Positions 36,901 to 58,221 of a DNA stretch of 64,000 nucleotides are shown piece after piece. The DNA is from Occultella kanbiaonis (GTDB lineage Bacteria; Actinomycetota; Actinomycetes; Actinomycetales; Beutenbergiaceae). The translations under genes and the position numbers were made by a program. Where the stretch lies: contig NZ_CP046175.1 of assembly GCF_009708215.1 (NCBI RefSeq), forward strand, positions 1,674,001 to 1,738,000, given 5' to 3'. How positions within the stretch are numbered: the stretch's first letter is position 1; every line of letters begins with the position of its first letter. Under the pieces are notes generated by a model. That model saw only the letters and a program-made list of their open reading frames with translations, had not been told where the DNA came from and made no database searches.

Positions 36901-36903
36901 CCC

Positions 36904-37182: not shown

Positions 37183-37185
37183 CCC

Positions 37186-37632: not shown

Positions 37633-37633
37633 A

Positions 37634-37914: not shown

Positions 37915-37928
37915 AAAGAGGAAACATC

Positions 37929-38069: not shown

Positions 38070-38072
38070 CCC

Positions 38073-39531: not shown

Positions 39532-40154
39532 TGGCCACGCTCACCACCGCCCAGGTATACGGGCTCGCCCGCCGGGCCGGCCTGGATGCTGCGGACGCCA
39601 CCATCGCCACCGCGATCGCCGCGGGAGAGTCCGGCCTACGCACCGACGCCCGCGGCGACGTCGGGCTACAGACGTCGAAGTGGGGCCCGTCCATCGGGCT
39701 ATGGCAGGTCCGCTCCCTCAACGCCGAACGCGGCACCGGTGGAGTGCGGGACGAGCTCGCACTCACCGACCCCGAGCACAACGCCCGATCCATGGTCTCC
39801 ATCAGCGCCGGCGGGAGCACCTGGCGCCCATGGACCGTCTACACCTCCGGAGCCTGGCGCCAGCACCTGGCCGCCGCCGAAGCGGCCGCGGACGGCTCCG
39901 AGAGCGGCGAGACCGACTGGCGCAAGGGCGGCGGCGCCGGCACCCAAGGGCTCGGCGGCAGCGCCGGCAGCGGCGGCAGCTCGGGCGGCAGCTCGGGCAG
40001 CGGCGGCGGCCTGCTCGACGGGCTGAACCCGTTCTCCGGGTGGCAGGACGACGCCCAGGCGCTCGGTATCAAGTTGGCCGTCGTCGGCGCCGGCGCGGTC
40101 CTCATCATCGTCGGCGCCTGGCGCGCCGTCTCCACCAGAAAGGCAAGCGAATGA
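39531..40154 (+). CDS. Lytic transglycosylase-like protein with membrane anchor (copy 1)
   Basis: In this 207-aa protein, IATAIAAGESGLRTDARGDV contains the catalytic-type ESGL of SLT domains. GPSIGLWQVRSLNAERGTGG matches the conserved GLWQ block, and NARSMVSISAGGSTWRPWTV follows. A long Gly/Ser linker leads to GLNPFSGWQDDAQALGIK and one helix. Analogous in role to PRD1 P7, the virion transglycosylase. ATG overlaps the previous stop by one base. Confidence 0.8.
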   Translation: MATLTTAQVYGLARRAGLDAADATIATAIAAGESGLRTDARGDVGLQTSKWGPSIGLWQVRSLNAERGTGGVRDELALTDPEHNARSMVSISAGGSTWRPWTVYTSGAWRQHLAAAEAAADGSESGETDWRKGGGAGTQGLGGSAGSGGSSGGSSGSGGGLLDGLNPFSGWQDDAQALGIKLAVVGAGAVLIIVGAWRAVSTRKASE

Positions 40155-40561
40155 AGGACACCATCAGCGACCGGATCGCCGCGACCCTGGCCGCCATCCC
40201 GCTCGAGCTCGAACGCGTCAAGTCCGAGCTCGCCACCGGGCTACAGGCCTTCGCCGGCAACACCGCACTCCAGGGCGCCCGGGTACTGCCCGTGGGCCCG
40301 ACCGGGCGGCCGCTCGCGTGGGCCGGCCCCGGGCGCCTGGTCGGCTGGTCCGTGCGCGCCGGCGAGGCCGCCGCGGCGCTCACCCTGCGCGACTCCCGGC
40401 AGGCCGGCGAGGGTGACGTCGTGGCCGTCCTGGACGTGCCCGCCGGCGAGTCCGCCACGGTGTGGCTCGGCCCCGGTGGCGTCTCGATCACCGAGGGCCT
40501 GTACGTGGAGACCGCCGGCGACGTCACCGCCGGCGCCGTGTGGCTCGGAGCGGTCGACTGA
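40151..40561 (+). CDS. 136-aa structural protein candidate (copy 1)
   Basis: The helical N-terminus (RIAATLAAIPLELERVKSEL) precedes a beta-rich C-terminus (GRLVGWSVRAGEAAAALTLR, ATVWLGPGGVSITEGLYVET). The fold could be a single jelly roll such as a penton or minor capsid protein. Unproven. Confidence 0.55.
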   Translation: MKDTISDRIAATLAAIPLELERVKSELATGLQAFAGNTALQGARVLPVGPTGRPLAWAGPGRLVGWSVRAGEAAAALTLRDSRQAGEGDVVAVLDVPAGESATVWLGPGGVSITEGLYVETAGDVTAGAVWLGAVD

Positions 40562-40806
40562 TGCTCGACTCGCTCCCCGGCCTGATCGCCAACGCCGGCG
40601 CGCTCGTCGTTCTCGCCCTGGCCCTGCTGCGCATCGCTGTGACTCTTCGCCGCGACACCGCGGAAGAGCTCACGAGGCGGGTCGGCGCACTGGAGACCGA
40701 GTACCGCTACGCCGTCGCCCGGATCTACCAGCTCGAAACCACCATGCGCGAGGCCGGCATGACCGTCCCGCCGTGGCCCGCCCGCACACAGGAGGCAACC
40801 CCATGA
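40561..40806 (+). CDS. 81-aa membrane/coiled-coil protein (copy 1)
   Basis: LIANAGALVVLALALLRIAV is the helix, followed by a coiled-coil RVGALETEYRYAVARIYQLE. Holin- or spanin-like in form. One-base stop/start overlap upstream, ATGA downstream. Confidence 0.6.
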   Translation: MLDSLPGLIANAGALVVLALALLRIAVTLRRDTAEELTRRVGALETEYRYAVARIYQLETTMREAGMTVPPWPARTQEATP

Positions 40807-41093
40807 AGAACGTCACCCCCTACGCCTACGCTCTCGCCGCGCTCTGCGTCGTCACCATCGGCGTGCTCGGCGGACTCAGCCAGCCGATCCCCGACGTGCT
40901 CGGCCTGGTCGCCACGGGCGCCATCGGCGTCGGCGCCGGCTCCAGCCTGCCCAACGCGGCCGCCCGCGCGATCGCCCCAGCCCCGGAGCCGGCGTCGGTG
41001 GTCCCGCACGTGCGCGAGCTCGTGCCCGACCCGACGCCGGCGACGGGGGAGACCACGCCGCAGTCCCCGCGCCTGCCCGGCGGTTCCGAGTGA
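40803..41093 (+). CDS. Holin-like 96-aa protein (copy 1)
   Basis: Two hydrophobic segments (YAYALAALCVVTIGVLGGLS and VLGLVATGAIGVGAGS) precede a proline-rich polar tail. GGAGG precedes ATG. A holin is plausible given the hydrolases around it. Confidence 0.6.
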   Translation: MKNVTPYAYALAALCVVTIGVLGGLSQPIPDVLGLVATGAIGVGAGSSLPNAAARAIAPAPEPASVVPHVRELVPDPTPATGETTPQSPRLPGGSE

Positions 41094-41232
41094 GGCCGTT
41101 CATCGGTGACGGCGGGTGGCCCTGACCGCCGGCCTGGTCCTGGTCGTGGCCGGCGCGTGGCTGCTCAAGGACGCCTACGAGCGCCGCGGCCGCTCGCGTC
41201 CGTTCCTGATGCGGCTGGTGCCCGGGGCGTGA
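41090..41232 (+). pseudogene. 47-aa membrane peptide, frameshifted (copy 1)
   Basis: Copy 2 (55596-55739) reads a complete basic, single-helix peptide. Here one C is missing (GTGACGGC for GTGACCGGC near 41105), so translation stops at 41125 after VRPFIGDGGWP. Confidence 0.6.
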
Positions 41233-41615
41233 GCCTGATCCTGCCGGAGTCGCGGGCCGGCACCGCCCGCGGCTGGACACTGGCCGACTTCCGCACCGTG
41301 CAGGGCCGCACCACGCCCGCGGTCGGCGGCGCGTGCGAGCTGCGGCTGCCCGAGGTGGAGCAGGACGAGCTGTGGCTGATCGATCACATGGTGGCCGCCT
41401 GCGACTCCACCACGCCGACGTCGGTGCGCCTGTACGAGTCGTCCGTTGACCCGCTCGCGCTGCTCGACGGCAGCTCGGCCGGGAACTTCGACGTCGCGGA
41501 CTGGCCCGCCGGCTTGCAGGTGCGCTCCACTCAATTCCTGATCGCTCGGTGGGATAGCGCCAGCGACGGCGCCCGCGGCACCCTCACTGTGCAACTGCGC
41601 TCTCTGAGGCGGTGA
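41229..41615 (+). CDS. 128-aa beta-rich minor structural protein (copy 1)
   Basis: SLILPESRAGTARGWTLADF, LWLIDHMVAACDSTTPTSVR and GARGTLTVQLRSLRR suggest a small beta-sandwich placed just before the spike. It may be a vertex/penton protein. GTG in a GTGA overlap. Confidence 0.6.
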   Translation: MSLILPESRAGTARGWTLADFRTVQGRTTPAVGGACELRLPEVEQDELWLIDHMVAACDSTTPTSVRLYESSVDPLALLDGSSAGNFDVADWPAGLQVRSTQFLIARWDSASDGARGTLTVQLRSLRR

Positions 41616-41618
41616 ACA

Positions 41619-42896
41619 ATGGGATTCCGAAACCCCATCACCACGGTGACTGCGCAGAATGCAACCGGAACAATGACGTTCGGCGCTGATCAGTGGGACG
41701 AAACAACACCCGGGATTGTCTTTACTACCGTTGAAGGTGGCGAGGAAAGTCCGGCCGGCCTCGCCTACGGCATGGATAACCGCATTGCGGGCGGGCAGTG
41801 GGGGCCGGGCATTCTCGGCCTGGCCCTCGTCGGTCCGAGCGGCGACACGGCACAGGAGCGCACCTACGTGATGATCACGAAGAATGGCCGTCTCAGCGTC
41901 CGCGCGCTTTCCTACACCGATAACGATGACCCGGTGCCGGTCAATCACGGGATGCCGGCCACGTTGAGCGTCGGTGGCGGCAACGTGGGCATGGATCCCG
42001 GCGGACTCGGGGCGCCCACGTTGCGGGCAGACTCCACCGTGGCGGCAGACGGCACCCTCACCGCCGGCTCGGTCACGGCCGGTCGGGCCGACTGGCAACC
42101 AGCCGCGCTCACTCACCACGGCTTCTACCACACCACCGCCACCATCAACGGAGTGCCGCCCGCGTGGTACCTCGGAGACTCCGATGGGGCGCGCATCGTG
42201 GCCGCGGTCGGCGGGGCGCACCAGCTGACGATCACCGCGCCCGGCGGCGCCACCGTGGACGGCGACTTGGAGGTGACCGGCTCCACCACGCTCGCCGGCC
42301 TGGAGCTCGCCGGCGGGCTCGACGTCGCCGGGGCGCTAACACTGCCCGGGGTGACCCTGATGGGGGACGCCGGCACCGACGTCCTCGACATCGCCGCGCT
42401 CGGCGGGGTGACCGTCAACGGTGCCCCGATCGCCGGCGCGAGCACACCGCTGGTCTACTTCGAGGCGACGTCCGCAACCGGCGTCAAGGGCACATGGGTG
42501 CTGCCCCAGTCGTCCTTCGTCACGGTGCCCAAGGCGCTGGTCACCGTTGATCAGGGCGGCGGTGTCTGGGACCCGATCGCCAACACCTACGCTGTGCCGG
42601 TCGCCGGCATCTATCTGGTCACCGCCTCGGTGAGGCTCTGGGACGACACAACCGCCGGCGTCGCCCGCTCGACCGGGCACGGCGCCGATATCGCCAACGT
42701 CGATACCGCCGCCGGCTTCGCCTGGCGCAAGATGCAGGCCACCACGGGCGCCGATCGCCGCGACGTCTTCCAGTTCACCCGGGTGATGCACTGCAACGCC
42801 GGTGACCCGCTGCGCCAGTTCATCTACTCCGACGCCCGCACGTTCGACGTCCAGGCGTCCGCGCTGTCGGTGCTACTACTCCGGGAGGACTCGTGA
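41619..42896 (+). CDS. Spike / receptor-binding protein with C1q-like head (copy 1)
   Basis: This 425-aa protein has an N-terminal region MGFRNPITTVTAQNATGTMT, then a repetitive middle with VDGDLEVTGSTTLAGLELAG and VTLMGDAGTDVLDIAALGG. This resembles trimeric phage fibre shafts. The last 135 residues read like a C1q/TNF-like trimeric head: YAVPVAGIYLVTASVRLWDD, RRDVFQFTRVMHCNAGDPLR. GC is lower at its 5' end. Overlaps the M23 gene by 4 bp. Confidence 0.75.
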   Translation: MGFRNPITTVTAQNATGTMTFGADQWDETTPGIVFTTVEGGEESPAGLAYGMDNRIAGGQWGPGILGLALVGPSGDTAQERTYVMITKNGRLSVRALSYTDNDDPVPVNHGMPATLSVGGGNVGMDPGGLGAPTLRADSTVAADGTLTAGSVTAGRADWQPAALTHHGFYHTTATINGVPPAWYLGDSDGARIVAAVGGAHQLTITAPGGATVDGDLEVTGSTTLAGLELAGGLDVAGALTLPGVTLMGDAGTDVLDIAALGGVTVNGAPIAGASTPLVYFEATSATGVKGTWVLPQSSFVTVPKALVTVDQGGGVWDPIANTYAVPVAGIYLVTASVRLWDDTTAGVARSTGHGADIANVDTAAGFAWRKMQATTGADRRDVFQFTRVMHCNAGDPLRQFIYSDARTFDVQASALSVLLLREDS

Positions 42897-43648
42897 TCGT
42901 TTCACCTGCGGCGGGCTCGACATCGCCGCTCAGCAAGGCCGGCCTGGCCGTCAAGGGCTACGGGCAGCGGGCCCCGATCAAGACCAGCAACGGGAAGTGG
43001 ACCGGCCAGTTCCACGCCGGCGTGGACATCACCGCGCCCGAGGGTGACCTGCTCGTGGCGGCCGTTTCCGGGACCGTCGTGGCCACCGGGTGGGCCGGCT
43101 CCGGGCTCGCCGTGGGCCGCTCCGGCATGTTCGTGCTGATCCGCTCCGGCGCCTACGACATCTACACCGGGCACATGTCCTACATCGGCGTCCGAGCAGG
43201 CCAGCACGTGGTAGCCGGCCAACCGTCCGGCGCAGTTGGCTCCACCGGCAACGTCACGGGCCCGCACGTGCACGTTGAGGTCCGCTACGCCGGCACCACC
43301 ACCACCCTCGACCCGATCGTGTGGTTCGCCGCACGGGGCGTCACCCTCGGCGCCGACAGTCCCAACCCATCACCAACAGCAGAGGATCCCGACATGGCAT
43401 TCACCGACGCCCAGGCCAAGCAGCTCGCCACCCTCGACGCCAACGTCAAGTTGCTCATGGAGTGGATGCAGACCAGCGCCGGCCCGACCTACCTGTGGCA
43501 GATCCGGCAGGACACCGCGAGGCTGCTCGGCCGCGACCCGGGCGCCGCCACCGATCCGGCGGCCCTCGCGGCCGACATCGTGGCGGCGATGGGCAAGGAC
43601 ATGGCCAAGCAGGTCGTGCAGGAGCTCGGGCGCGAGCTCACGACGTAG
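42893..43648 (+). CDS. M23 family metallopeptidase (copy 1)
   Basis: This 251-aa lysostaphin-like endopeptidase has zinc ligands in WTGQFHAGVDITAPEGDLLV (H-x3-D) and NVTGPHVHVEVRY (HxH). The core is residues 20-150. A C-terminal helical region (FTDAQAKQLATLDANVKLLM) may anchor it to the virion. GTG start inside the spike stop. It is the third wall-degrading enzyme of the element. Confidence 0.88.
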   Translation: MIVSPAAGSTSPLSKAGLAVKGYGQRAPIKTSNGKWTGQFHAGVDITAPEGDLLVAAVSGTVVATGWAGSGLAVGRSGMFVLIRSGAYDIYTGHMSYIGVRAGQHVVAGQPSGAVGSTGNVTGPHVHVEVRYAGTTTTLDPIVWFAARGVTLGADSPNPSPTAEDPDMAFTDAQAKQLATLDANVKLLMEWMQTSAGPTYLWQIRQDTARLLGRDPGAATDPAALAADIVAAMGKDMAKQVVQELGRELTT

Positions 43649-43660
43649 AACGGGCACAGA

Positions 43661-43707
43661 GCGGCCCCGGCGCCATGGTGGGACTCACCAGGTGCCGGGG
43701 CCGCTTT
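43661..43707. terminator. Terminator between convergent operons (copy 1)
   Basis: An 11-bp stem GCGGCCCCGGC / GCCGGGGCCGC with a 22-base loop is followed by TTTCGT. It separates the rightward structural operon from the leftward ATPase operon. Confidence 0.75.
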
Positions 43708-43714
43708 CGTGCGC

Positions 43715-44422
43715 TCAGACGGGCAGCGGGGCCATCCGATAGAGCTGATTCTCGGCGGTGACCCACAACAGGAACCAGTGCGGGCCGCGGCCCCACGTCT
43801 CATGACACTCAGCGTGGAACCGATCGGCCGGGTAACCGATCGTCTTGGCGATCCGTCCCGGTCGTCGGGGTTCGGCAACTGGAACACCGCCACCAGGTCA
43901 CTCTGCGCGAGCACGAGCGGGGAGACGTTCACCGCGGGGGGCCCGTCGAAGAACGCCGTCGTGCGGTAGTGCCGGTTCTGCATCAGCAACCGGCGCATGT
44001 GCGGGCCGATCTTCGCCGCGGTGGGCCATGAACTCGCCCACCTCGCCCGCCCACACCCGCCGCCGGCCGGTCCTGCGGGTACAGACCCAGCCTACCGCCC
44101 GGTCCAGGTCGTCCACGTAGGTGTCTGACCCGGGATCGGCCCGGTAGTGCAGGTTCCGGGTGACGCGGCGCCCGTTGCGCGCCGGCGCGGCCGGGAACGC
44201 GTCCGGCACCGGGCCCGTGAGCTGCTCGGCGTCGTCGCCCGGCTCGGCGTTGCCGTTGACATCGATCGCGACCTTGTCGAACGGGTAGGACTGGTAGAGC
44301 CGGCGGTTGAACACCGACTTCCCCGACCCCTTGCGACCCCACGCGCTCACGATCATCGGCCGGGACGGGTCCAGGTCGCCCAGCGGCATGCCCTGGTCCT
44401 GCTCGTGCGCGCTGGACGTCAC
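43715..44422 (-). pseudogene. Packaging ATPase, multiply frameshifted (copy 1)
   Basis: The N-terminal part with Walker A GRKGSGKSVFN is intact, but small indels at about 43853, 44022, 44056 and 44091 and a change near 43934 break the frame compared with copy 2 (58222-58929). If real, copy 1 could not package DNA unaided. Sequencing error is an equal possibility. Confidence 0.75.
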
Positions 44423-44934
44423 CACGCCGTGGGGCTCGTGCTCGAGGTAACGCCGGCGTCCAGGTCGTCGAGCTGCTCGCCGTCGTCGGTGGGCACGGTC
44501 GCCGCGGCGGCCGCCCGCTCAGCCTTCGCCTGGCGGTTGCTGCGCCACTTCACGAGCTGCTTGCCGAGGTACATGACCAGGCCGACGCCGGCCGCGATCG
44601 CGTCCACGACATCGGGGTTCGCCGCTGAGGTGATCATCGACCGGCGGGCGGCGATGTTGCCCAGCGGGTCACCGATCGCCTTCGCGTCGTCGTCGTCGGT
44701 GAGCCAGATCCCGGAGTCCCGGTCCACGTCGTCACGGGCGGCCACCTCGTGCACCACGACGCCGGCCCCGAGTACGCCGTCACGGGCGGCCTTCTTGATG
44801 ATCGCCTTGGGTGCGACCGGCTTACCGGATGATCCCGCCGAGGAAGTCGGGGATGGGCCGGGGTCCGCGACGTCGCCGCTGGCGCTCCACGGGTCGCCGG
44901 CGTCGGAAGGTGACGGGGCCGCCGTCTCTGCCAT
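44419..44934 (-). CDS. 171-aa membrane protein upstream of ATPase (copy 1)
   Basis: Begins MAETAAPSPSDAGDPWSASG; the acidic, proline-rich N-terminal 45 residues are followed by VLGAGVVVHEVAARDDVDRD and a helix VVDAIAAGVGLVMYLGKQLV. The stop overlaps the ATPase start (GTGA). Possibly a DNA-packaging vertex membrane protein, by analogy with PRD1 P20/P22; inference. Confidence 0.6.
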   Translation of the reverse strand: MAETAAPSPSDAGDPWSASGDVADPGPSPTSSAGSSGKPVAPKAIIKKAARDGVLGAGVVVHEVAARDDVDRDSGIWLTDDDDAKAIGDPLGNIAARRSMITSAANPDVVDAIAAGVGLVMYLGKQLVKWRSNRQAKAERAAAAATVPTDDGEQLDDLDAGVTSSTSPTAW

Positions 44935-45314
44935 CGTCGCCGGGTCCGGCTCCCGGAACAGCAGGGCTCGGGCTCGGGATCGCCCGCGGGCTGCTCGGGC
45001 TCGGGTCCTGGAGCTGGCTGCTGCTGCTGTCGTCGCTGCTTGGGTTGCGTGCCATAGTCGGTCACCTCTCGGACGGTGTAGGGGTCGGCGTCGGCGGCCG
45101 CCGGCTTGGCGGTCACGACGTCACCGGGCGGGGGAGTGTCGGCCGGGATGCGCCGGCCCTTGACCGGCAGACCACACCCCTCGACGGCACACACCAGCTC
45201 GGCGGTGAGCCGGCCGGGGTCGGACTGACCCTCGGTCGTGTGCCCGTCGCGACACGTGCCACGGACTCTGACAGTTTTCTTCGATCGGGTGCTCACGGTT
45301 GTGTAATCTGCCAT
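44822..45314 (-). pseudogene. 164-aa zinc-binding-like protein, frameshifted (copy 1)
   Basis: It starts MADYTTVSTRSKKTVRVRGT and has cysteines in GTCRDGHTTEGQ and CAVEGCGLPV. Two bases are missing near 44962 relative to copy 2, changing the frame of the Pro/Arg-rich C-terminus. It overlaps the downstream 171-aa gene by about 113 bp. Confidence 0.55.
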
Positions 45315-45325
45315 CGGGGCTGGGT

Positions 45326-45363
45326 GTTCATGGAAGTGAACAGCGCCGTTCACGCGGGTGAAC
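45326..45363. promoter_or_regulatory. Paired operator at a divergent promoter (copy 1)
   Basis: GTTCA-N6-TGAAC at 45326-45341 and GTTCAC-GCGG-GTGAAC at 45348-45363 are two palindromes starting 22 bp apart, on one face of the helix. They lie just outside the leftward gene start (45314) and cover the upstream ATG of the rightward HTH gene. Confidence 0.7.
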
Positions 45364-45608
45364 GTGTCACCCGAGATTGGCTAGATTCCGTGGCTACCGC
45401 AGTGCTCACCGACATGAAAACCCGCCTCTCGACCGCCGGCGCGGCGGTCACCAGCGCCAAGGACTCCTACGACGCCAAACGGGAGCAACGGGACCGGCTC
45501 ATCTGCGAAGCCGTCGACGGCGGCATGTCCCAGCGGGGCGCCGCGGCCGCGGCCGGCGTCTCCATCGCCCGGGTGTCCGCGATCCTGCTCGCGAGCTACG
45601 GCGACTAG
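45330..45608 (+). CDS. Small HTH regulator (copy 1)
   Basis: The 92-aa frame from ATG 45330 ends in a Fis/homeodomain-like HTH (ICEAVDGGMSQRGAAAAAGV, SIARVSAILLASYGD). The ATG lies inside an operator palindrome, so GTG 45390 (VATAVLTDMKTRL) may be the true start. It probably represses the divergent ATPase operon. Its stop overlaps the integrase stop in the palindrome CTAG. Confidence 0.65.
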   Translation: MEVNSAVHAGERVTRDWLDSVATAVLTDMKTRLSTAGAAVTSAKDSYDAKREQRDRLICEAVDGGMSQRGAAAAAGVSIARVSAILLASYGD

Positions 45609-46423
45609 CTCGCGATCGCGAGCACGGTCCGGCGCAACGCGTCCGGTTGCACCAGCACGTAGCGCTGCGTCGTGGACGGTGAGGCGTGCCCTAGGAGCTG
45701 CTGGACGCTGAGTAGGTCCCGCTCAACGGCGTGGGCCCGGGTGGCGAACCGGTGCCGGAGCGTGTGCGTGCTGACGCCATCGGGCAGCAGGTCCGAGACC
45801 CGCTTGGCGAGGTAGTGCGCGGACAGGTGCCCATCGATCCGGCCCGGGAATGCGAACCCGCCGCCGGCCTCGCACGCTCGCCGGATCGCGCCGGCGGAGG
45901 GAGTCCGACAACGGGACGTCCCTCTCGCGGTCGCCCTTGCCGTGTACCACGAGCGTCCAACCGATCAGGTCGTCCACCAGGTCCCGGGCGTGCACGAGCA
46001 CCATCTCCCCGCGGCGGAGGCCGGCCTCGGCCCCGAGCCGCAGCGCCAGGTGCTCGCGGGGCTGTGCCCGGGCAAGGGCGGCGGTCAGGGCGCGCTCCGG
46101 CGTTGGCGCGGCCGCGGCTGCCCGGGCTTGACCGCCTGCAGGGCCCGGGTCGGGTCGGTGTCGGTGTGGCCGGCCTCGATCGCCCATCGGTAGAACTGGG
46201 TGAAGCTCGACCGGTGCGAGCGGCGCGTCTCGGCCGCCCACGTCTGACCGCCGGTCCACGCCACGAGCTGCGCTCCGGTGACCTGCCAGGGCCCGCGGGG
46301 CCGCATCACCGCGGCGAGCCGGTCCAGGTGGTAGCGGCGAAGCGCGATCGTCTGCTCAGACCGTCCAGCCGACCGGAGAGCCAACACGAAACCCGCTACC
46401 GCCACTGCCCACGTCATTGTCAC
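45605..46423 (-). pseudogene. Tyrosine integrase, frameshifted (copy 1)
   Basis: Same gene as the intact copy at 60114-60932, but an extra G near 45898 and a missing G near 46103 break the frame between the N-terminal domain and the catalytic core. It lies downstream of the long-form repressor operon, so this is the integrase copy that still has a promoter. Confidence 0.75.
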
Positions 46424-46431
46424 GCCAGTGC

Positions 46432-46653
46432 CTATCGGGCGATTCCGGGCACCTGAAAGCCGGCACCCGACGTGACGCCGGACACATGCAGGCCATCACG
46501 AGCTGCCGTCGCGTCGGCACCGAACGCCACCGACCCGCACGTGCACCGCGCCGCCCACTCGCCGGCGAGCTCGGCCACGGTCACCCGGTGCACACCGGTC
46601 CCCGGAGCGCCGGACCACGCCGCGAGGCCGGCCTGTGACGAGTGCCCGCTCAC
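46432..46653 (-). CDS. Hypothetical 73-aa protein (copy 1)
   Basis: SGHSSQAGLAAWSGAPGTGV, LAGEWAARCTCGSVAFGADA: a single CTC motif, no known domain. Overlaps the upstream 68-aa gene by 4 bp and precedes the integrase by 8 bases. Confidence 0.55.
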   Translation of the reverse strand: MSGHSSQAGLAAWSGAPGTGVHRVTVAELAGEWAARCTCGSVAFGADATAARDGLHVSGVTSGAGFQVPGIAR

Positions 46654-46856
46654 CGGATCGCCTTCGGCTCAGGGTTGGAGTCCAGTCCAGCCCCACGGTC
46701 CAGCCCCACGATCCGGGCGCGGCTGATGATGTCGGAGACGTTGAACAGAACGTCGGCGTCCCAGCCCTTCAACCACGCGACGATCCGCAGTTGATCCGCG
46801 GTCAACGGCACACCTTCGAGCGCGTGGTCAAGCGCGTCCTGGCCGGCGGCGCTCAT
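46650..46856 (-). CDS. Hypothetical 68-aa protein (copy 1)
   Basis: SAAGQDALDHALEGVPLTAD, QLRIVAWLKGWDADVLFNVS; helical and acidic. Its ATG overlaps the stop of the long repressor form (ATGA), so it is translated with it at this junction. Confidence 0.6.
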   Translation of the reverse strand: MSAAGQDALDHALEGVPLTADQLRIVAWLKGWDADVLFNVSDIISRARIVGLDRGAGLDSNPEPKAIR

Positions 46857-47272
46857 GCCGGCACCGCCGTGTCGGTAGCGCGGTTGCCGCGCCGGCGCTC
46901 CCGCTCGGCGTCCAGGTCTACGACGGCTCTGACCTGCGCATCCTCTGAATCACTGGGTTCTGGGTTCGAGTCCCAGGGGGTGTACTCCACATGATCCCCG
47001 TCCGGTCCAACCGGGCGGGGATCATCTGTCTCTCCGAGCAGGAAGCCTCCGCCCACATTGAGGTGGCGCGCGGCGGCGACGACATCGCCGGCTGACCACG
47101 CAACCTGACCACGGAGCTTGCGCCCGACTACGGACGCGGACACTCCGAGCACCGGGGCCATCTCTCGCGCCGTGATGCGCTTCAGGAACATGACCTGGTG
47201 AGCGCGTTGACCGATCGCCTCGTCGAGCGATCGCGGTTCCGTAATTCCCGTCAATAGCGTCATACGCGTCAC
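46853..47272 (-). CDS. XRE-type repressor, long form across the internal att junction
   Basis: This 139-aa version of the repressor is encoded by copy 2 up to the att core and by the right end of copy 1 beyond it. After ...NPEPSD the frame continues SEDAQVRAVVDLDAERERRR, GNRATDTAVPA. This must be the form made from a circular genome. Its stop overlaps the next gene, placing repressor, two small genes and integrase in one operon. Start GTG 47272 or ATG 47263. Confidence 0.82.
   Translation of the reverse strand: MTRMTLLTGITEPRSLDEAIGQRAHQVMFLKRITAREMAPVLGVSASVVGRKLRGQVAWSAGDVVAAARHLNVGGGFLLGETDDPRPVGPDGDHVEYTPWDSNPEPSDSEDAQVRAVVDLDAERERRRGNRATDTAVPA
46948..46985 (+). repeat. Internal att core (attP-like junction)
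   Basis: Identical to attL and attR cores, with provirus sequence on both sides; equals the attP of the excised circle. Confidence 0.95.
46993..47023. terminator. Hairpin inside the repressor gene (copy 2)
   Basis: Same sequence as 32491-32521; here no tRNA precedes it. Confidence 0.55.
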
Positions 47273-47347
47273 GGTAGCACCGTACGCGACACGCCACTAG
47301 TAGTTCGTATGTTGACGTGAGTGACGCGAGGCGTCACCCTGTGACGC
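47264..47347. promoter_or_regulatory. Repressor/excisionase control region (copy 2)
   Basis: Identical to copy 1; palindrome at 47321-47337, flanking half-sites GCGTCAC and GTGACGC. Confidence 0.7.
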
Positions 47348-47536
47348 ATGGCGAACGATGATGACTCGACATGGCTAACAACGACGCAAGCCGTCACTTT
47401 GCTGCCGGCTGTCACCCCTCGCACTTTGCAGCGATGGGCACAGAAGGGCTCGGTCCAGGTCCAGGTACTGGCAAGCGGTCGCTACCGCTTCCGCCGCTCG
47501 GACGTTGAGAAGCTCGCTCGGGAGCGTCAGTCGTGA
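47348..47536 (+). CDS. MerR/excisionase-like HTH protein (copy 2)
   Basis: Identical to 32846-33034; 62 aa, divergent from the long-form repressor. Confidence 0.75.
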   Translation: MANDDDSTWLTTTQAVTLLPAVTPRTLQRWAQKGSVQVQVLASGRYRFRRSDVEKLARERQS

Positions 47537-47709
47537 GCGGGCCGACGCTCGTGCACCTGCTGCGCCTGGAGGCGGAGCGGCGCCGGGTGATCGACCGCAT
47601 GGTGGCGGACCTGGCGCGGCTGACTGGCACGCCTGAGGCGGTCGTCCGGCTCAAGTACGCGCTGACGCCGGCGGAGCTGGCGGAGCTCGACGCGGAGCTC
47701 GTCGCGTGA
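47533..47709 (+). CDS. Hypothetical 58-aa helical protein (copy 2)
   Basis: Identical to 33031-33207; GTG start in GTGA overlap. Confidence 0.6.
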   Translation: MSGPTLVHLLRLEAERRRVIDRMVADLARLTGTPEAVVRLKYALTPAELAELDAELVA

Positions 47710-47807
47710 GCCGGGCGCTGCGGGCGATGGCCCGCGCCGCCGTGCTCTGCGTGCTCGCGTCGGTGCCGCTGGCGGCCACGCTGCTCGCCGGGTGGTGGGC
47801 CGCGTGA
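47706..47807 (+). CDS. 33-aa membrane peptide (copy 2)
   Basis: Identical to 33204-33305. Confidence 0.5.
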   Translation: MSRALRAMARAAVLCVLASVPLAATLLAGWWAA

Positions 47808-48103
47808 GGGTCACCGAACCGATGCTCCCCGGGATGGCAGCGGTGCCCGGCTACAAGCGGCCGGCCGCGCGGACCCCGAAGCCGAAGCCGGCCCCGCGGG
47901 CACCATGGGCAAAGAAACTCCAGGCGAAGAACCCAACCGTCTGCGACGTGTGCGCGGCGTCGGTCCTGGCGAAGCTCGGCGCCGGCGAGCGGACCTACGC
48001 ACCGCGCCGGGCCGCGTTCGTCGTCTCGGACGGCAAGGGTCCCGGCCAGCCGCTGTGTGCTGAGCACGCCGCGGACCGCAAGCGCCGGTTGGGGCTCAAG
48101 TGA
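47804..48103 (+). CDS. Small zinc-finger-like protein (copy 2)
   Basis: Identical to 33302-33601; CDVC and CAEH retained. Confidence 0.6.
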   Translation: MRVTEPMLPGMAAVPGYKRPAARTPKPKPAPRAPWAKKLQAKNPTVCDVCAASVLAKLGAGERTYAPRRAAFVVSDGKGPGQPLCAEHAADRKRRLGLK

Positions 48104-48231
48104 GCGGGCGCTGGGGCCGGCTCGCGGTCGTCGTCGTCGGCTCGGCCGTGCTCGGCGCGGCGCTCGGCGTGTGGCAGGCGTGGGCGGGCACTCCGGTGCC
48201 GTTCGTGCCTGAGCCGGAGCAGACCCGGTGA
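48100..48231 (+). CDS. 43-aa membrane peptide (copy 2)
   Basis: Identical to 33598-33729. Confidence 0.5.
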   Translation: MSGRWGRLAVVVVGSAVLGAALGVWQAWAGTPVPFVPEPEQTR

Positions 48232-48416
48232 GCGGGTACGTGCCGTCACCGGGTGACCTGGTGACGCGGGGGAGCGGCCTGGCGTTCTACGTCGTGGTCA
48301 AGGTGCACCGGTCCACGGTCACGCTGCGCTCGACCAAGCGGAACTCCCGCTCTGGTGCTTTCGCGACGTACACGGCGACGCTCGGGGAGCTCTCCCTGGT
48401 GGAGCGTGGCTCGTGA
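48228..48416 (+). CDS. Hypothetical 62-aa SH3-like protein (copy 2)
   Basis: Identical to 33726-33914. Confidence 0.6.
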   Translation: MSGYVPSPGDLVTRGSGLAFYVVVKVHRSTVTLRSTKRNSRSGAFATYTATLGELSLVERGS

Positions 48417-48619
48417 GCGCGGCGGCGGACGGCGCGGCCGTGATCGTCGCGGAGCTGCTAGGCGACGGCGACGGGCACACCCGGGACCTGGCCCCGACGA
48501 GGCGCGGGAAGTTCGTGCCGTTCCGGCTGTTCTACGACGTGACGCCGGCGGGCGAGCTCGTGCCCGTCACGGTGCAGCCGGCCACGCTCAGGCGCCGCGC
48601 CTGGCCTGAGTTCGGGTGA
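48413..48619 (+). CDS. Hypothetical 68-aa protein (copy 2)
   Basis: Identical to 33911-34117. Confidence 0.55.
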   Translation: MSAAADGAAVIVAELLGDGDGHTRDLAPTRRGKFVPFRLFYDVTPAGELVPVTVQPATLRRRAWPEFG

Positions 48620-49759
48620 GCGCTGCGGCCCTGGCGGCGCCGGCTACTAGGCCGGCGCCGCCCCGTGTGCGTCGGGCGAACCGTCGCACGGAGCGAACCT
48701 CGACGTTCCACCTGATGCGGGGCGTTGCCGGGCGGCTCGACCCGCGCCCGGCGGATGACCGACTGGCTGGAAGCGGTGGAGGACGCCGCTACGACGCACT
48801 GCCGTGCCGATGGGCGCCGGACGGTGCTCGCGATCGCTGACGGGCTGCGTGAGCGCGCTCTGGGCGCGTCTGCGTGCATCACGTCCCGGCCGACGTGGGC
48901 GTTCCTGGCGGAGCGCGCCGGCGTCTCCCGCGCCCGGGTGGCGTACTGGCTCGGCCGGCTGCGCGCGTGGGGCTTGCTCGGGATCGTCGCCACGGGCCGC
49001 TCACGCGCCTACGCGGCGGCCGCGAAGGACGGCCGGGACGGCATCAACGAGGCCGCGGTGTACCTGCTCGCGGTGCCCCGCCGGCTCGCGCCTGTGGACG
49101 TAAACGAGACCCCTCCCCTGGTAAGGGTTGGGATGACCCCCGCACGCACGCGCGAGGCCGGGCTGGGAGGCTCCATCGGAGCCGCTGCGCGGCAGGAAAG
49201 CCCTATTGAAGCGCCGCGCGCCGCAAGGCTCGCCCCGGTAGGCGACCTCGCCAGCGCGGCGACCGGTCACCCGGGCGAGCAGCGGCGCCAGGGCGCGTGG
49301 CCGGGTGGGATGACGGCAAGACGCCGGGACGAGGCCATGGTGGCCGCGGAGCACCTGCGGCGCCGCTACCCGGTGTTGCGACGCGTGACGGCCAAGCACG
49401 TCCGATCGGTGATCCGGGAGTTCCTGCTGGCCGGGTGGACGCTCTCGGACCTGGCGCACGCGATCGACCAACGCCCGACCGGCCGGCAGCCGCACTCCGG
49501 CGCCAACGGTGTCGGCAACGTGGGCGCCTGGCTGACCAGCCGGCTCGCGTGGTGGCGAGACGACAACGGCACCGTGGTGGTGTCCCCGTCGCAACGGGTG
49601 GCCGCCGAACGGGTGGAGCTGCGGGCCCGAGCTCGGGCACGAGCTGAGGCGGAGGCGGCGGCGGCCGCGGCCCGGGTGCCGGCGACGTCGAACGCCGAGT
49701 ACCTCGCGGCCCGGGCCGCGCTGCGAGCCAAGGCCTCGCTGTCGAATACACCCCTGTGA
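48616..49759 (+). pseudogene. Putative replication/wHTH protein, frameshifted near its start (copy 2)
   Basis: An extra G near 48720 (GGGG for GGG) sends the first frame to a stop at 48840. From 48725 a 344-aa frame runs unbroken through the wHTH domain and the C-terminal block, because this copy has the additional C that copy 1 lacks. Taking the 5' end from copy 1 and the middle from copy 2 gives one continuous protein of about 380 aa. Re-initiation at 48725 could still yield a nearly complete protein. Confidence 0.55.
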
Positions 49760-49823
49760 AACCTCGGCGTGTCGTGGACTTCCGAACCTAGGTCCCGCGA
49801 CAGTGCGCCTGTTAGCCGCTTCC

Positions 49824-49862
49824 GGTGGGGCCGGGTGTGGCGAGGATCGGCCCGGCCCCACC
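49824..49862. terminator. GC-rich hairpin before structural genes (copy 2)
   Basis: Identical to 35320-35358. Confidence 0.6.
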
Positions 49863-49936
49863 GACGCCCGATCCTCACCGCACCCGGCCGCACCGGCCGC
49901 GCTGGCTCGCCACCGTGCACCTACCTAGGAGACACC

Positions 49937-50047
49937 ATGAAGAAGCTTCTCTACACGGCCGGGATCGCCCTCGTCGTGGTCCTGGCCGTCGACGCCGCGA
50001 AGGGTGGCGGGATCAAGCTCCCGTCCATCCCGGGGCTCAAGGGCTGA
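49937..50047 (+). CDS. 36-aa membrane peptide (copy 2)
   Basis: Identical to 35433-35543. Confidence 0.65.
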   Translation: MKKLLYTAGIALVVVLAVDAAKGGGIKLPSIPGLKG

Positions 50048-50054
50048 CCCACCG

Positions 50055-50198
50055 ATGAAGCCGCTCAGTTTCTGGCTCGCCGTGGGCGGCGTGTCCATCC
50101 TCGCCCCGGTGGTGTTCAACATCGCCGCGGACCGGCTCGGGGACCACGTTCCCGGGCTTCGCACCCTGAACGACTACCTCACCCGCCGCAACGGCTGA
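50055..50198 (+). CDS. 47-aa membrane peptide (copy 2)
   Basis: Identical to 35551-35694. Confidence 0.65.
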   Translation: MKPLSFWLAVGGVSILAPVVFNIAADRLGDHVPGLRTLNDYLTRRNG

Positions 50199-50213
50199 AA
50201 GGCATCAACCAAC

Positions 50214-51404
50214 ATGGCAACCATCGCCACCCCGACCGCCGCCGCGCCGCAGCGGTACATGCAGGGCATCGCCGTCCCGGCGTCGTCCGTGCGACCCCCG
50301 GAGTTCTTCGCCCGCACCCGCCGGCACATCAGCCTGGAGCGGTCGTTCACCTACGACGGCTCCGAGACGCAGACCGTCGTTGAGCTGCGCAAGTCCGACA
50401 TCCTCGCCGGGATCGATGTCCGGTTCACCGGCTCGGTCACCGTGGCCCCGGGCACCGGCACCGTGGCGTCCACCGCCCGCTGGCCCTACGACCTGCTGCG
50501 CGCGCTGCGGTTCACCGCCAACGGCGCGTCCAACATCATCAACGTGTCCGGCCTGAAGCTGAAGGTCCGCGACATCATGAAGCGCTCGGACCTCACCGAC
50601 CGCGGCGTGTCCCAGACCTTCGGCGGCTCCGCCAAGTCCAACGGCACGCTCGCGATCGCGTCCGAGGCGTGGGGCGTCGGCGCGAACAGCTCCGGCCTGG
50701 CCGCCGGGACCTACGACGTGGAGCTCGTGTGGCACGTCCCGGTCGCGGAGGACGAGCAGGACCTGGCCGGCGCGATCTTCCTCGCCACCTCGAGCTCGGA
50801 CCTGACCCTCACCCTGGACTACGCCCAGAAGGCGGACCTGTTCGCCATCACCGGTGACGCCGCGGTGGACATCGACGGCACCTTCCAGGTGTCGTCCACC
50901 AAGTACTCCATCCCGATCGGGCAGGACGGGCAGATCGTCGTTCCCGACCTGTCGGTGTTCCACTCGCTGATCCAGTCCCGCTACGCCAACGGCGTGCAGG
51001 CCGGCGAGAACGAGCTCCGCCTCATCGGGCAGGGCGCGGGCAAGTCGCTGCTGCGGATCTTCTTCCAGGTCTACAACGGCACCCCGGCCGCGCCGCTGGC
51101 GATGAACGCCGCGAACTTCGGCCGGCAGGCCTGGCGCTACGCCAACAACGAGACGCCCGACGCGTTCCACGACGGGACGCACATGCGGGTGGACTCCGAG
51201 CGTCGGTACAACTCCGACATCGGCGCGCTGTGGGGCTTCGGCTGCCACGACTTCGCCCACGAGAACGCGTTCCGTGACGTCGTGGACATGGGCACCACCT
51301 CCGAGCTGCGCCTGGTCACCACGATCAACTCCGACGTGGCCCTGACCTCCCCGGCGGTGGAGATCGTCCAGGAGACCGTGTTCCTGGCCGGGCAGGCGGT
51401 CTGA
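50214..51404 (+). CDS. Putative double-jelly-roll major capsid protein (copy 2)
   Basis: Identical 396-aa sequence to copy 1 (35710-36900), so the capsid gene has no differences between the copies. Confidence 0.8.
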   Translation: MATIATPTAAAPQRYMQGIAVPASSVRPPEFFARTRRHISLERSFTYDGSETQTVVELRKSDILAGIDVRFTGSVTVAPGTGTVASTARWPYDLLRALRFTANGASNIINVSGLKLKVRDIMKRSDLTDRGVSQTFGGSAKSNGTLAIASEAWGVGANSSGLAAGTYDVELVWHVPVAEDEQDLAGAIFLATSSSDLTLTLDYAQKADLFAITGDAAVDIDGTFQVSSTKYSIPIGQDGQIVVPDLSVFHSLIQSRYANGVQAGENELRLIGQGAGKSLLRIFFQVYNGTPAAPLAMNAANFGRQAWRYANNETPDAFHDGTHMRVDSERRYNSDIGALWGFGCHDFAHENAFRDVVDMGTTSELRLVTTINSDVALTSPAVEIVQETVFLAGQAV

Positions 51405-51407
51405 CCC

Positions 51408-51686
51408 ATGACCACCAGCCCTCTGGCTACCACGTGGGCCCCGGCCGGCGTGGACGCCAAGTACGCGCTCCACGGCGGCGGACCCGTCAGCTCGGCACCC
51501 ACCGAGCTGAACACGGTCGCGTCGCCGGCGGAGGGTGCCAACGCCGAGGGGACCTGGACGGCGCGTAACCCGCTCGTCTGGTTCGGCGCCATCGCGGCCG
51601 TCACGTTCGGCCTGATGGCGTTCTCGACGTCGGTACGGGTGGGCGGCACCACGGCAACCCTCGCGCTCGGAAACGCGAAGGGCTGA
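51408..51686 (+). CDS. 92-aa membrane protein (copy 2)
   Basis: Identical to 36904-37182. Confidence 0.65.
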   Translation: MTTSPLATTWAPAGVDAKYALHGGGPVSSAPTELNTVASPAEGANAEGTWTARNPLVWFGAIAAVTFGLMAFSTSVRVGGTTATLALGNAKG

Positions 51687-51689
51687 CCC

Positions 51690-52136
51690 GTGGCCATCCC
51701 AGCCGCCGCGGCCGCGGGCGGCACTGTCGCCCGCGGCGCGGGTGCCGCTGCTACCCGTCAGGCAGCCGGCACCCGCACCGCGGCGGCCGGCCGCGCGTCC
51801 TCGGGCCGGGCACCAGCCACCACGGCTGGCACGCGGGCCGGCGGCGCGCCGCCGGCGTCCGCGCCCGCGCCCGAGCCGCCGGCCAAGCCGTCCCGCCTAC
51901 CCGGGCCCGCCGGCAAGTCCGCCACGAAGGCGAAGGCCACGCGGCGGCGGGTCACCCGCCCGCTGCGCGGCGCCGCCCGAGCCGGCGGAAACGTCCTGCT
52001 CGGCACGCTGGCCTACGTCCTCGCACTCACCTACATGCGCGGCGGGGCGCCGGCCGTCAAGCAGCTCCTGGCCGCAAAGTTCCTCAACAGAACACCGCTC
52101 GATATTCAGGGCACCGGATCAGAAAGGATCGGCTGA
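51690..52136 (+). CDS. 148-aa Ala/Pro/Arg-rich membrane protein (copy 2)
   Basis: Identical to 37186-37632. Confidence 0.6.
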   Translation: MAIPAAAAAGGTVARGAGAAATRQAAGTRTAAAGRASSGRAPATTAGTRAGGAPPASAPAPEPPAKPSRLPGPAGKSATKAKATRRRVTRPLRGAARAGGNVLLGTLAYVLALTYMRGGAPAVKQLLAAKFLNRTPLDIQGTGSERIG

Positions 52137-52137
52137 A

Positions 52138-52245
52138 ATGAATAGCGGCGGAATCGTCCTGGTCGTCTTTGGCATTTGGGTGCTCACCCAGGTCCTGGCC
52201 GGCGACATGCTCGGCCGGCTCAACGTCGTCGGCGGTGACGAATAG
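52138..52245 (+). CDS. 35-aa membrane peptide (copy 2)
   Basis: Identical to 37634-37741. Confidence 0.6.
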   Translation: MNSGGIVLVVFGIWVLTQVLAGDMLGRLNVVGGDE

Positions 52246-52418
52246 TGCGCGGGCTCCTGTCAACACTGTTCGTCACCTGGCTCGGCCTCATCGCATTGCA
52301 AACCCTGTCCGGCTCGGGCGCATCCGGTCGCGTTGCAGAAGCATTCCGCGACGCGAACACCATCATCGAAAAAGCGCTCGACCCGACCGTTCCCGCAATT
52401 CCAGACCTGCGCAAGTAG
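52245..52418 (+). CDS. 57-aa membrane peptide (copy 2)
   Basis: Identical to 37741-37914; GTG start sharing one base with the previous stop. Confidence 0.55.
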   Translation: MRGLLSTLFVTWLGLIALQTLSGSGASGRVAEAFRDANTIIEKALDPTVPAIPDLRK

Positions 52419-52432
52419 AAAGAGGAAACATC

Positions 52433-52573
52433 ATGCTTCGGCAACTCACCAAGTACGGCGCGGGCCTGATCGCGCTGTACGTCATCGTCGCCAACGGCTC
52501 CCGGTTCGGATCCGTCATCAGCGCCGGCGCCCGCGGCGTCTCGGACGTCACCCGCACGCTCCAGGGGCGCTGA
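52433..52573 (+). CDS. 46-aa membrane peptide (copy 2)
   Basis: Identical to 37929-38069. Confidence 0.6.
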   Translation: MLRQLTKYGAGLIALYVIVANGSRFGSVISAGARGVSDVTRTLQGR

Positions 52574-52576
52574 CCC

Positions 52577-52918
52577 GTGGCCCGTACCGACGTCGCCGCG
52601 GCGGTGAACGCCCGCGTCTCGGCCATCGTGTCCTATGGGCTCGACCGGCGCGGCGCGGGCCTGTTCGCGGCCCTGACCGGCCGCACCAACGGCGAGCTCA
52701 ACGGGTCCCGGCCCGTCGTGGACACCGCCCGCGACGGCGGCCGCACCTTCCACGGCACCACCGCGACCCCGCAGCGGTTCACCGGGATCGCCCCGCTCGG
52801 GATCGCCCGCCCGGTCGCCCCGACCAACGGCACCATGGCGGACGAGCTGTCGGCGTCCCCGCTCAACGATGGCGCGTTGCGCATCTTCGCCCAGCGGCTC
52901 GCGCGGGGCCGGCGATGA
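52577..52918 (+). CDS. Hypothetical 113-aa protein (copy 2)
   Basis: Identical to 38073-38414. Confidence 0.55.
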   Translation: MARTDVAAAVNARVSAIVSYGLDRRGAGLFAALTGRTNGELNGSRPVVDTARDGGRTFHGTTATPQRFTGIAPLGIARPVAPTNGTMADELSASPLNDGALRIFAQRLARGRR

Positions 52919-53433
52919 ACGTCAAGGCGCTGTGGGCGAAGGTCCAGGACAACAAGTGGGTGCTCGGCGGGCTCGGCGCGGCCGCCGTCGTCGCGCTGGC
53001 GTGGTTCTCGCGTCGCTCTGCCACCACGCCCGCCGCCGACGACACCGGCGGCGCTGGCTACGGGCTGGCGGCGCCGGGTGCGACGTCCACCACGGGCGGC
53101 TACACCGCCTCGGCGGGCGGCGCCTACGACTCCAGCGCCAGCGACGTCTACAACGCGCTGCAGCCGGCCTTGGAGAACGTGGGCAAGCAGTATGACGAGC
53201 TGCGCGACCTGCTCAACAAGACGCCCGTGCCCGAGGCCGAACAGCCGCGCGAATCGCTCGGGTTCTTCCAGGTCCGCGGCACGCCCGGGATCTACGAAGT
53301 GTTCACCGACAACACCCGCCGCCACCTCGGCAAGACCGAAGCGCAAGAGCGCGGCATCTTGCACAACCCGGCCGCGGTGAACGCCTCGGACGCGAACGCC
53401 GATTGGTCCAAGTACCGGATCGTCCCGGACTGA
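52915..53433 (+). CDS. 172-aa membrane-anchored protein (copy 2)
   Basis: Identical to 38411-38929. Confidence 0.6.
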   Translation: MNVKALWAKVQDNKWVLGGLGAAAVVALAWFSRRSATTPAADDTGGAGYGLAAPGATSTTGGYTASAGGAYDSSASDVYNALQPALENVGKQYDELRDLLNKTPVPEAEQPRESLGFFQVRGTPGIYEVFTDNTRRHLGKTEAQERGILHNPAAVNASDANADWSKYRIVPD

Positions 53434-54037
53434 TGCCCGCCCTCGCCACACCCACCGAGCTCCAGGAGCCGCCCGCGCTCCCGGGGCTCGGCCGTGCGTG
53501 CGCCCGCACGTGCGCGAAGCCGCCACCCTGCTCGCCGGCCGGTTCGGGATCTCCACCGTGGGCGGGTGGCGCGCGCTCGCCCGCGACATGGGCGGGCACC
53601 CCGCCGGCCTGGCCGTGGACTTCATGTGCACGAAGGCACAGGGAGACGCGCTCTCGGCCTACGTGGCCGCCAACCACCAGGCGCTCGGCGTTGACTACCA
53701 GATCTGGTGGCAGCAGCTCTGGACGCCGCGGCGCGGCTGGTCCGCGATGGCCGATCGCGGATCCCCGACACAGAACCACCTCGACCACGTACACGTGCAG
53801 TGGAAGTCCGGCGCCGTGCTCGCCCTCGACGGGCTCACGGACGGCACCGGCAGCGGGAAGATCGGCACCGGCTCCGGCACGTCCGGCGGCGGCCTCGGTG
53901 GCGTCGGGGAGGCGCTCTCCGGGCTGAACCCGTTCTCCGGGTGGCAGGACGACGCCCAGGAGCTCGGGATCAAGGTCGTGGTAGTCGTGGCCGGCCTCGC
54001 CCTGGTCGTGCTCGGCCTCGTGCGGGGCGTGCGCTGA
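53433..54037 (+). pseudogene. M15-like peptidase, frameshifted (copy 2)
   Basis: Near 53489-53500 this copy reads CTCGGCCGTGCGTGCGCCCG where copy 1 has CTCGGTGCCGTGCGCCCG (two bases longer). The frame is lost after PALPGLG. A frame from about 53498 (MRPHVREAATLLAGRFGIS) keeps the catalytic region and anchor, so re-initiation could give a protein lacking only about 22 residues. Confidence 0.7.
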
Positions 54038-54660
54038 TGGCCACGCTCACCACCGCCCAGGTATACGGGCTCGCCCGCCGGGCCGGCCTGGATGCTGCGG
54101 ACGCCACCATCGCCACCGCGATCGCCGCGGGAGAGTCCGGCCTACGCACCGACGCCCGCGGCGACGTCGGGCTACAGACGTCGAAGTGGGGCCCGTCCAT
54201 CGGGCTATGGCAGGTCCGCTCCCTCAACGCCGAACGCGGCACCGGTGGAGTGCGGGACGAGCTCGCACTCACCGACCCCGAGCACAACGCCCGATCCATG
54301 GTCTCCATCAGCGCCGGCGGGAGCACCTGGCGCCCATGGACCGTCTACACCTCCGGAGCCTGGCGCCAGCACCTGGCCGCCGCCGAAGCGGCCGCGGACG
54401 GCTCCGAGAGCGGCGAGACCGACTGGCGCAAGGGCGGCGGCGCCGGCACCCAAGGGCTCGGCGGCAGCGCCGGCAGCGGCGGCAGCTCGGGCGGCAGCTC
54501 GGGCAGCGGCGGCGGCCTGCTCGACGGGCTGAACCCGTTCTCCGGGTGGCAGGACGACGCCCAGGCGCTCGGTATCAAGTTGGCCGTCGTCGGCGCCGGC
54601 GCGGTCCTCATCATCGTCGGCGCCTGGCGCGCCGTCTCCACCAGAAAGGCAAGCGAATGA
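54037..54660 (+). CDS. Lytic transglycosylase-like protein (copy 2)
   Basis: Identical 207 aa to 39531-40154. Confidence 0.8.
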   Translation: MATLTTAQVYGLARRAGLDAADATIATAIAAGESGLRTDARGDVGLQTSKWGPSIGLWQVRSLNAERGTGGVRDELALTDPEHNARSMVSISAGGSTWRPWTVYTSGAWRQHLAAAEAAADGSESGETDWRKGGGAGTQGLGGSAGSGGSSGGSSGSGGGLLDGLNPFSGWQDDAQALGIKLAVVGAGAVLIIVGAWRAVSTRKASE

Positions 54661-55067
54661 AGGACACCATCAGCGACCGGATCGCCGCGACCCTGGCCGC
54701 CATCCCGCTCGAGCTCGAACGCGTCAAGTCCGAGCTCGCCACCGGGCTACAGGCCTTCGCCGGCAACACCGCACTCCAGGGCGCCCGGGTACTGCCCGTG
54801 GGCCCGACCGGGCGGCCGCTCGCGTGGGCCGGCCCCGGGCGCCTGGTCGGCTGGTCCGTGCGCGCCGGCGAGGCCGCCGCGGCGCTCACCCTGCGCGACT
54901 CCCGGCAGGCCGGCGAGGGTGACGTCGTGGCCGTCCTGGACGTGCCCGCCGGCGAGTCCGCCACGGTGTGGCTCGGCCCCGGTGGCGTCTCGATCACCGA
55001 GGGCCTGTACGTGGAGACCGCCGGCGACGTCACCGCCGGCGCCGTGTGGCTCGGAGCGGTCGACTGA
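54657..55067 (+). CDS. 136-aa structural protein candidate (copy 2)
   Basis: Identical to 40151-40561. Confidence 0.55.
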   Translation: MKDTISDRIAATLAAIPLELERVKSELATGLQAFAGNTALQGARVLPVGPTGRPLAWAGPGRLVGWSVRAGEAAAALTLRDSRQAGEGDVVAVLDVPAGESATVWLGPGGVSITEGLYVETAGDVTAGAVWLGAVD

Positions 55068-56122: not shown

Positions 56123-56125
56123 ACA

Positions 56126-58155: not shown

Positions 58156-58167
58156 AACGGGCACAGA

Positions 58168-58214: not shown

Positions 58215-58221
58215 CGTGCGC

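Follow-up and report, generated by a model that had tools for sequence, protein, structure and literature searches.

In the window, by which we mean the whole 64,000-nucleotide stretch of Occultella kanbiaonis DNA analysed here, a 14.5-kb element is present twice in direct tandem (32441-46942 and 46943-61451); its insertion target is a tRNA-Lys(CTT) gene. The host tRNA gene, predicted by ARAGORN on the plus strand at 32410-32483, forms the left bound (attL) and provides the att core with its 3′ half. The right bound is a repeat of that half at 61457-61494 (attR), which is identical to attL over 38 nt counted from the 3′ edge of the tRNA. A further core, also 38 nt long and without a mismatch to the 3′ half of the tRNA, lies at the internal junction between the two copies (46948-46985). 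In the sister genome G009 of the same genus, both flanks meet at a single tRNA-Lys without the element, and the left-flank and right-flank queries, run separately, cover the same 42 nt in the 3′ half of the tRNA; this empty-site comparison uses G009 alone, and the main match in G008 and G010 starts 126-143 bases into the query. Aligned with each other, the two copies show 19 differing columns, the core base among them. Small indels in copy 1 break the integrase gene, a 344-aa HTH ORF and the ATPase homologue, all of which are open in copy 2, and are due either to decay of one copy or to uneven polishing of the repeat. A lytic transglycosylase and an M23 peptidase are also encoded by the element.

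At the internal junction, which is equivalent to the attP of a circular form, a repressor of 139 aa is encoded on the minus strand at 46853-47272 (Pfam BetR, 7.5e-7, exceeding the Pfam gathering score; PHROG 2328, transcriptional repressor, 3.7e-10). At attL the repressor frame (32444-32770, minus strand) enters the tRNA gene antisense, reads YTPWDSNPEPSD from the tRNA part and terminates after 108 aa as ...WDSNPEPSD followed by TAA; on the plus strand this stop reads TTA (32444-32446) and falls within the anticodon loop of the host tRNA-Lys(CTT). The frame at the internal junction has the same N-terminal part as at attL, followed by 31 extra codons (SEDAQVRAVVDLDAERERRRGNRATDTAVPA) that end in TDTAVPA. 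The first difference between attL and the internal junction is a single base, T at 32445 versus G at 46947, by which TAA becomes TCA (Ser). At attR the same 31 codons (61365-61457) and a stop are found as an orphan tail on the minus strand (61362-61457) without a repressor body, and an in-frame host-side stop is located upstream. The earlier note had claimed that the host tRNA supplies the stop of a 108-aa repressor, that the frame continues for 31 residues at the internal junction, that the tail is left behind at attR, and that integration therefore changes the repressor C-terminus; all of this can be read directly from the frames at the three junctions. An alternative start, ATG at codon 4, would give forms of 105 and 136 aa. 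Separately, transcription of the repressor in the integrated state would go antisense into the host tRNA-Lys(CTT) gene.

In the circular form the repressor, ORF68, ORF73 and a tyrosine integrase are co-directional with gaps of at most 8 nt. The ATG of ORF68 (46650-46856, minus strand; second copy at 61159-61365) overlaps the repressor stop (ATGA), the GTG of ORF73 (46432-46653, minus strand; second copy at 60941-61162) overlaps the ORF68 stop (GTGA), and the integrase of 272 aa, which is open in copy 2 (60114-60932, minus strand), starts 8 nt after ORF73; its counterpart in copy 1 (about 45605-46423) has a frame broken by two indels. The four genes would be co-transcribed in the circular form, and at attR integration has separated ORF68, ORF73 and the integrase gene from the repressor promoter region, a second effect of integration that the earlier note does not name. 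Neither ORF68 nor ORF73 has a Pfam match; for ORF68, no tblastn match was found in the phage collection at E 0.1, and its PHROG match, to a family of unknown function, is sub-significant (E 0.078). ORF68 ends in ...LDSNPEPKAIR (46650-46700); its DSNPEP peptide also occurs in the repressor, where it is read from the antisense tRNA T-arm, and the DNA of the ORF68 end is T-arm-like by eye.

Divergent from the repressor is a 62-aa HTH_17/MerR gene in the Cro/Xis position (47348-47536, plus strand). The intergenic region between the two genes (47266-47347) carries GTGACGC/GCGTCAC half-sites, with those at 47321, 47331 and 47341 at a 10-bp spacing. Between 47241 and 47420 there are five GTGACG/CGTCAC half-sites, compared with a mean of 0.5 in 5000 Markov sequences (P = 0.0004, for a motif picked post hoc), and one whole copy of the element has 31 such sites. 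The half-sites in the intergenic region are candidate operators. A scan of 46600-47700 for sigma-70 promoters and terminators found none.

The element encodes a major capsid protein of the P3 (double jelly-roll) family (50214-51404, plus strand; copy 1 at 35710-36900), which matches PF09018 at 8.5e-11 (42.1 bits, cut-off 25.3). This protein shares 26% identity with that of phiG2 (Tectiviridae) over 88% of its length and 57% with that of L010, a 16.4-kb metagenomic viral contig from IMG/VR and the sole match in capsid scans of the viral contigs. Used as a two-sequence profile, the protein matches PRD1-type P3 chains in PDB at E 7e-4. A probable packaging ATPase (approximately 58222-58932, minus strand) is 57% identical to a homologue in L010 that lies upstream of the L010 capsid gene and has a P-loop as read by eye; in the Pfam search the L010 protein fell below the cut-off and the window protein had no match. 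On sequence evidence the element is best read as a tailless double-jelly-roll virus, as the earlier note had taken it to be. Capsid homologues were found only in its own genome among 24 genomes of the family, 396 of the order and 394 of the class (one genome in each set). Two more PF09018 matches among the 394 class genomes, in G438 and G586, are below the cut-off, and ten proteins of the window had no tblastn counterpart (E 0.01) in their neighbourhoods. L010, the nearest relative by capsid, carries a serine recombinase of the resolvase/recombinase family at 3142-3903, so exchange of integration modules may occur in this group of viruses. No repressor or integrase homologue was detected in 12.6 of the 16.4 kb of L010, and the window element is the one example here of an apparent tailless virus with attP inside the repressor gene.

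How much of this arrangement could arise by chance? When positions and frames in the GC-rich element are drawn at random, 65% run for 30 codons or more before a stop, and in 12% that stop also overlaps (ATGA/GTGA) the start of an ORF of 60 aa or longer. The open frame at the window locus alone is therefore weak evidence, and with a chance of 0.65 for an open frame, statistical proof from the window alone was rejected. Codon statistics favour the tail being coding: under the codon usage of the element it has the top score among six frames, 4.8% of the open non-coding stretches (n = 605) reach its score, and 30% of the real coding ones (n = 191) fall below it. That the arrangement is more than chance follows from the comparative evidence in relatives and not from the window locus.

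Of 396 genomes of the order searched with the repressor, 10 matched, including its own, giving nine homologues. A tRNA gene (Lys, Thr or Met) is located at or just past the 3′ end of the repressor in eight of the nine, and for seven the 3′ half of the tRNA recurs 2.9 to 48.7 kb away. In all seven relatives that could be read, the repressor frame stops within the tRNA, and in six of them the frame at attR is open past the host stop, by 36 codons in L022, 106 in L023, 29 in L024, 82 in L025, 7 in L028 and 342 in L029; the attR frame of L027 has no extension and is one codon shorter. Two homologues were left out of the frame test, L026 with a single core copy in 14.7 kb and two tblastn pieces in different frames, and L030 with no tRNA in the 3.2 kb examined. 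Frame continuity across the attP-equivalent, which the earlier note proposed to look for in related elements, thus recurs in six of seven. Of the three frames at attR, the true one stays open longest in only five of eight elements (window included), which is no more than suggestive. Moreover, the long-frame stop overlaps the start of the next ORF in L022 (GTGA), L024 (ATGA) and L025 (with TTG). Among eight relatives searched, an integrase of the window type lies beside attR in five (48% identity in L022, 44% in L024, 41% in L025, 27% in L029 and 26% in L023), and L026, L027 and L028 gave no match. Because they encode tape-measure proteins, L022 and L024 are tailed prophages; L023 has one protein that matches a minor tail family and a second with a weak terminase match, and none of the five proteins tried from L025 and L029 had a match. 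One of the seven tails ends in AA (L022, AVAA). Repressor scans further found four loci in the genome contigs and five in the viral contigs, with matches confined to residues 17-91.

Three of these relatives have features of their own. In L029 (G324 contig 3) the repressor frame at attR has no stop for 362 codons and leads directly into a tyrosine integrase, which is 44% identical to the Brujita integrase over 233 aa; in the circular form, repressor and integrase would thus be encoded as one fusion protein, which is split by integration. In L028 (G041 contig 1) and L027 (G057 contig 5) the core copies are only 2.9 kb and 6.6 kb apart, and these two are either remnants or very small integrative elements.

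The founding paper of integration-dependent immunity is said to be that of Broussard in 2013. With the repressor as tblastn query, matches were obtained in 48 phage records; Arthrobacter phages account for 41, and those of their matches that are listed cover the HTH part only. We examined four of these 48 records (Pipp, Dogfish, Bunker and WST1) and four of 182 integrase-matching records (Barebow, SallySpecial, GMA5 and JustASigh), and with Brujita added the set comprised nine phages. Eight of the nine (Pipp, Dogfish, Bunker, WST1, SallySpecial, GMA5, Barebow and Brujita) have an antisense tRNA T-arm motif inside the repressor coding sequence, and in the same eight the repressor is followed by int and preceded by a small divergent gene; the JustASigh repressor has no T-arm motif. 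Seven of the eight repressors with the motif end in AA (GMA5 in AAA), and that of Barebow ends in RAS. Among the listed integrase matches are GMA5, GRU3, Jeanie and McGonagall (44-47% identical), for which the accessible text of the source describes a common 37-bp attP matching a tRNA-Lys attB, integration-dependent immunity and, in GMA5, an additional ORF between repressor and int (PMC5559632). The BPs repressor has 136 aa in its viral and 103 aa in its prophage form, the viral form is degraded via an ssrA-like tag, and this switch was tested experimentally, according to the available sections of PMC4557955.

As outlined in the accessible part of PMC9934374, such systems have the attP core in the repressor gene, a host stop that shortens the prophage form, and an ssrA-like tag with two C-terminal alanines as a key feature. 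In the window element the common core of attP lies inside the repressor coding sequence and the prophage repressor is shortened to 108 aa at attL by a stop in bacterial DNA, the TAA in tRNA-Lys; the long form ends in VPA and not in a two-alanine ssrA-like C-terminus, and the host tmRNA tag ends in ALAA. We therefore do not file the element as a full member of integration-dependent immunity: the anatomy matches and the two-alanine tag is missing. The likeness to the logic of BPs and Brujita drawn in the earlier note accordingly holds for the layout, with attP in the repressor gene and a host-supplied stop, and is not supported by the sequence for a typical C-terminal degradation tag (AVPA, not AA). 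A degradation tag as an established feature was rejected, the long form having no AA end.

On anatomy and homology, the window element, read as an integrating tailless virus, is likely to carry a switch of the integration-dependent immunity type. While the genome is circular, the repressor gene would read through attP to give the 139-aa form, and one leftward transcript would cover the repressor, ORF68, ORF73 and the integrase. The integrase would recombine attP with the 3′ half of tRNA-Lys(CTT), after which the stop within the tRNA would yield the 108-aa form, presumably the stable and active repressor that binds the region between the repressor and HTH genes, with the tail lowering repressor activity or stability. 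After integration the small ORFs and the integrase would stay at attR without the repressor promoter. The virus itself is presumed to be viable. The switch cassette was probably taken from the gene pool of tailed phages. More tentatively, and with less confidence than we place in the switch itself, a complete repressor-attP-integrase cassette may have crossed from Duplodnaviria to Varidnaviria, where the switch would work without an ssrA-like tag and the long form would lead ribosomes on to ORF68, ORF73 and int; integration would thereby swap the repressor end and close the integrase operon at once.

The explanation that comes closest to competing with this one, plausible if still short of probable, is that the tail is a degradation signal without an AA end and the mechanism exactly that of BPs. 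The lengths are close, 31 versus 33 residues of tail and 139/108 versus 136/103 aa for the two forms (available sections of PMC4557955), and the C-terminal residue is Ala; against this, the tail ends in VPA where the host tmRNA tag ends in ALAA, and an AA end is seen in only one of the seven tails in genome relatives. From this last count the AA tag may be one of several modes of tail action. Tag-free layouts may be common, or the tails of the relatives may act otherwise, e.g., by carrying translation into the int operon.

It is somewhat unlikely, though worth weighing, that the arrangement is an operon switch only, in which attP lies between the repressor promoter region and int, integration silences the integrase, and the swap of tails is neutral. 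The ATGA and GTGA overlaps that link the repressor, ORF68 and ORF73 with int 8 nt further on in the circular form, the separation of int at attR, the tail without an AA tag, and the wide variation of the relatives' tails (7 to 342 codons past the host stop, and one with none) all agree with it. Under such a scheme, however, attP need not be in the repressor frame, yet the host stop lies inside the tRNA in seven of seven relatives, and the codon use of the tail is coding-like. Less probable again is that the tandem and its internal junction are an assembly artefact or come from a free circle in the culture. The two copies differ mainly by the small indels that hit the integrase, the 344-aa ORF and the ATPase homologue of copy 1, as uneven polishing would produce; however, the attR tail is in frame with the core whether or not the tandem is real, and a junction from a circle would still represent attP. 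Finally, a passive overlap, in which a tRNA-derived core came to lie at the repressor 3′ end by accident, open frames are common at this GC and no switch exists, is improbable, since against the chances of 0.65 for at least 30 open codons and 0.12 with the ATGA/GTGA overlap stand the repetition of the arrangement in eight of nine homologues with Lys, Thr and Met tRNAs and in tailed phages, and the experimental test of the BPs switch (PMC4557955, available sections).

P3-lineage capsids occur in actinobacterial tectiviruses, some of them temperate (accessible parts of PMC6950372, PMC11768872 and PMC5894146). Tectiviridae are characterised by a linear genome whose inverted terminal repeats measure about 100 bp (PMC11768872); of the window element, integrated copies were observed. 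For those of Streptomyces, the mechanism of leaving lysogeny is stated as open and the lysis-lysogeny switch as unknown in the available text of PMC6950372; the accessible text on Microbacterium tectiviruses reports no integrase (PMC11768872), and that on Toil-like prophages describes most as having no recombinases and two Streptomyces noursei proviruses as carrying Cas1 (PMC5894146). Tyrosine integrases are noted for the STIV group in the part of the literature available, so there is precedent for double-jelly-roll viruses that integrate. As for the combination, the earlier note knew of no such switch in a tailless double-jelly-roll virus, and in the literature searched, which covered few subscription journals, we likewise found none that joins integration-dependent immunity with tectiviruses or non-tailed viruses. 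The element thus offers a concrete and testable lysogeny switch in an apparent tailless virus. It also suggests that lysogeny modules are able to pass between virus realms, and, to judge by the relatives, layouts with attP inside the repressor seem to recur in the order as sampled, often without an AA tag.

Compared with known systems, the element shares actinobacterial hosts and P3-lineage capsids with WheeHeim, Forthebois, the Microbacterium phages and the Toil-like proviruses, some of which are temperate; in contrast to the window element with its tyrosine integrase, no integrase is named for these viruses in the source texts available. With BPs and Brujita it shares the position of attP within the repressor frame, a co-directional int further downstream and a small divergent gene, and with BPs also the approximate lengths of the two forms (136/103 aa in the accessible account of BPs versus 139/108 here), whereas the P3 capsid, the two extra ORFs between repressor and int and the lack of an AA end set it apart. 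The Gordonia cluster CW phages are similar in their integrase (44-47% identity), tRNA-Lys attB, the same kind of immunity and, in GMA5, the extra ORF (PMC5559632, accessible text), but they are tailed and the GMA5 repressor ends in AAA. The L022 prophage of G048 differs in its 48.7 kb, its tail tape-measure protein and the AVAA end of its repressor tail, and it resembles the window element in the tRNA-Lys(CTT) target, a repressor of 34% and an integrase of 48% identity, the GTGA overlap, and the replacement of the host TAA at attR.
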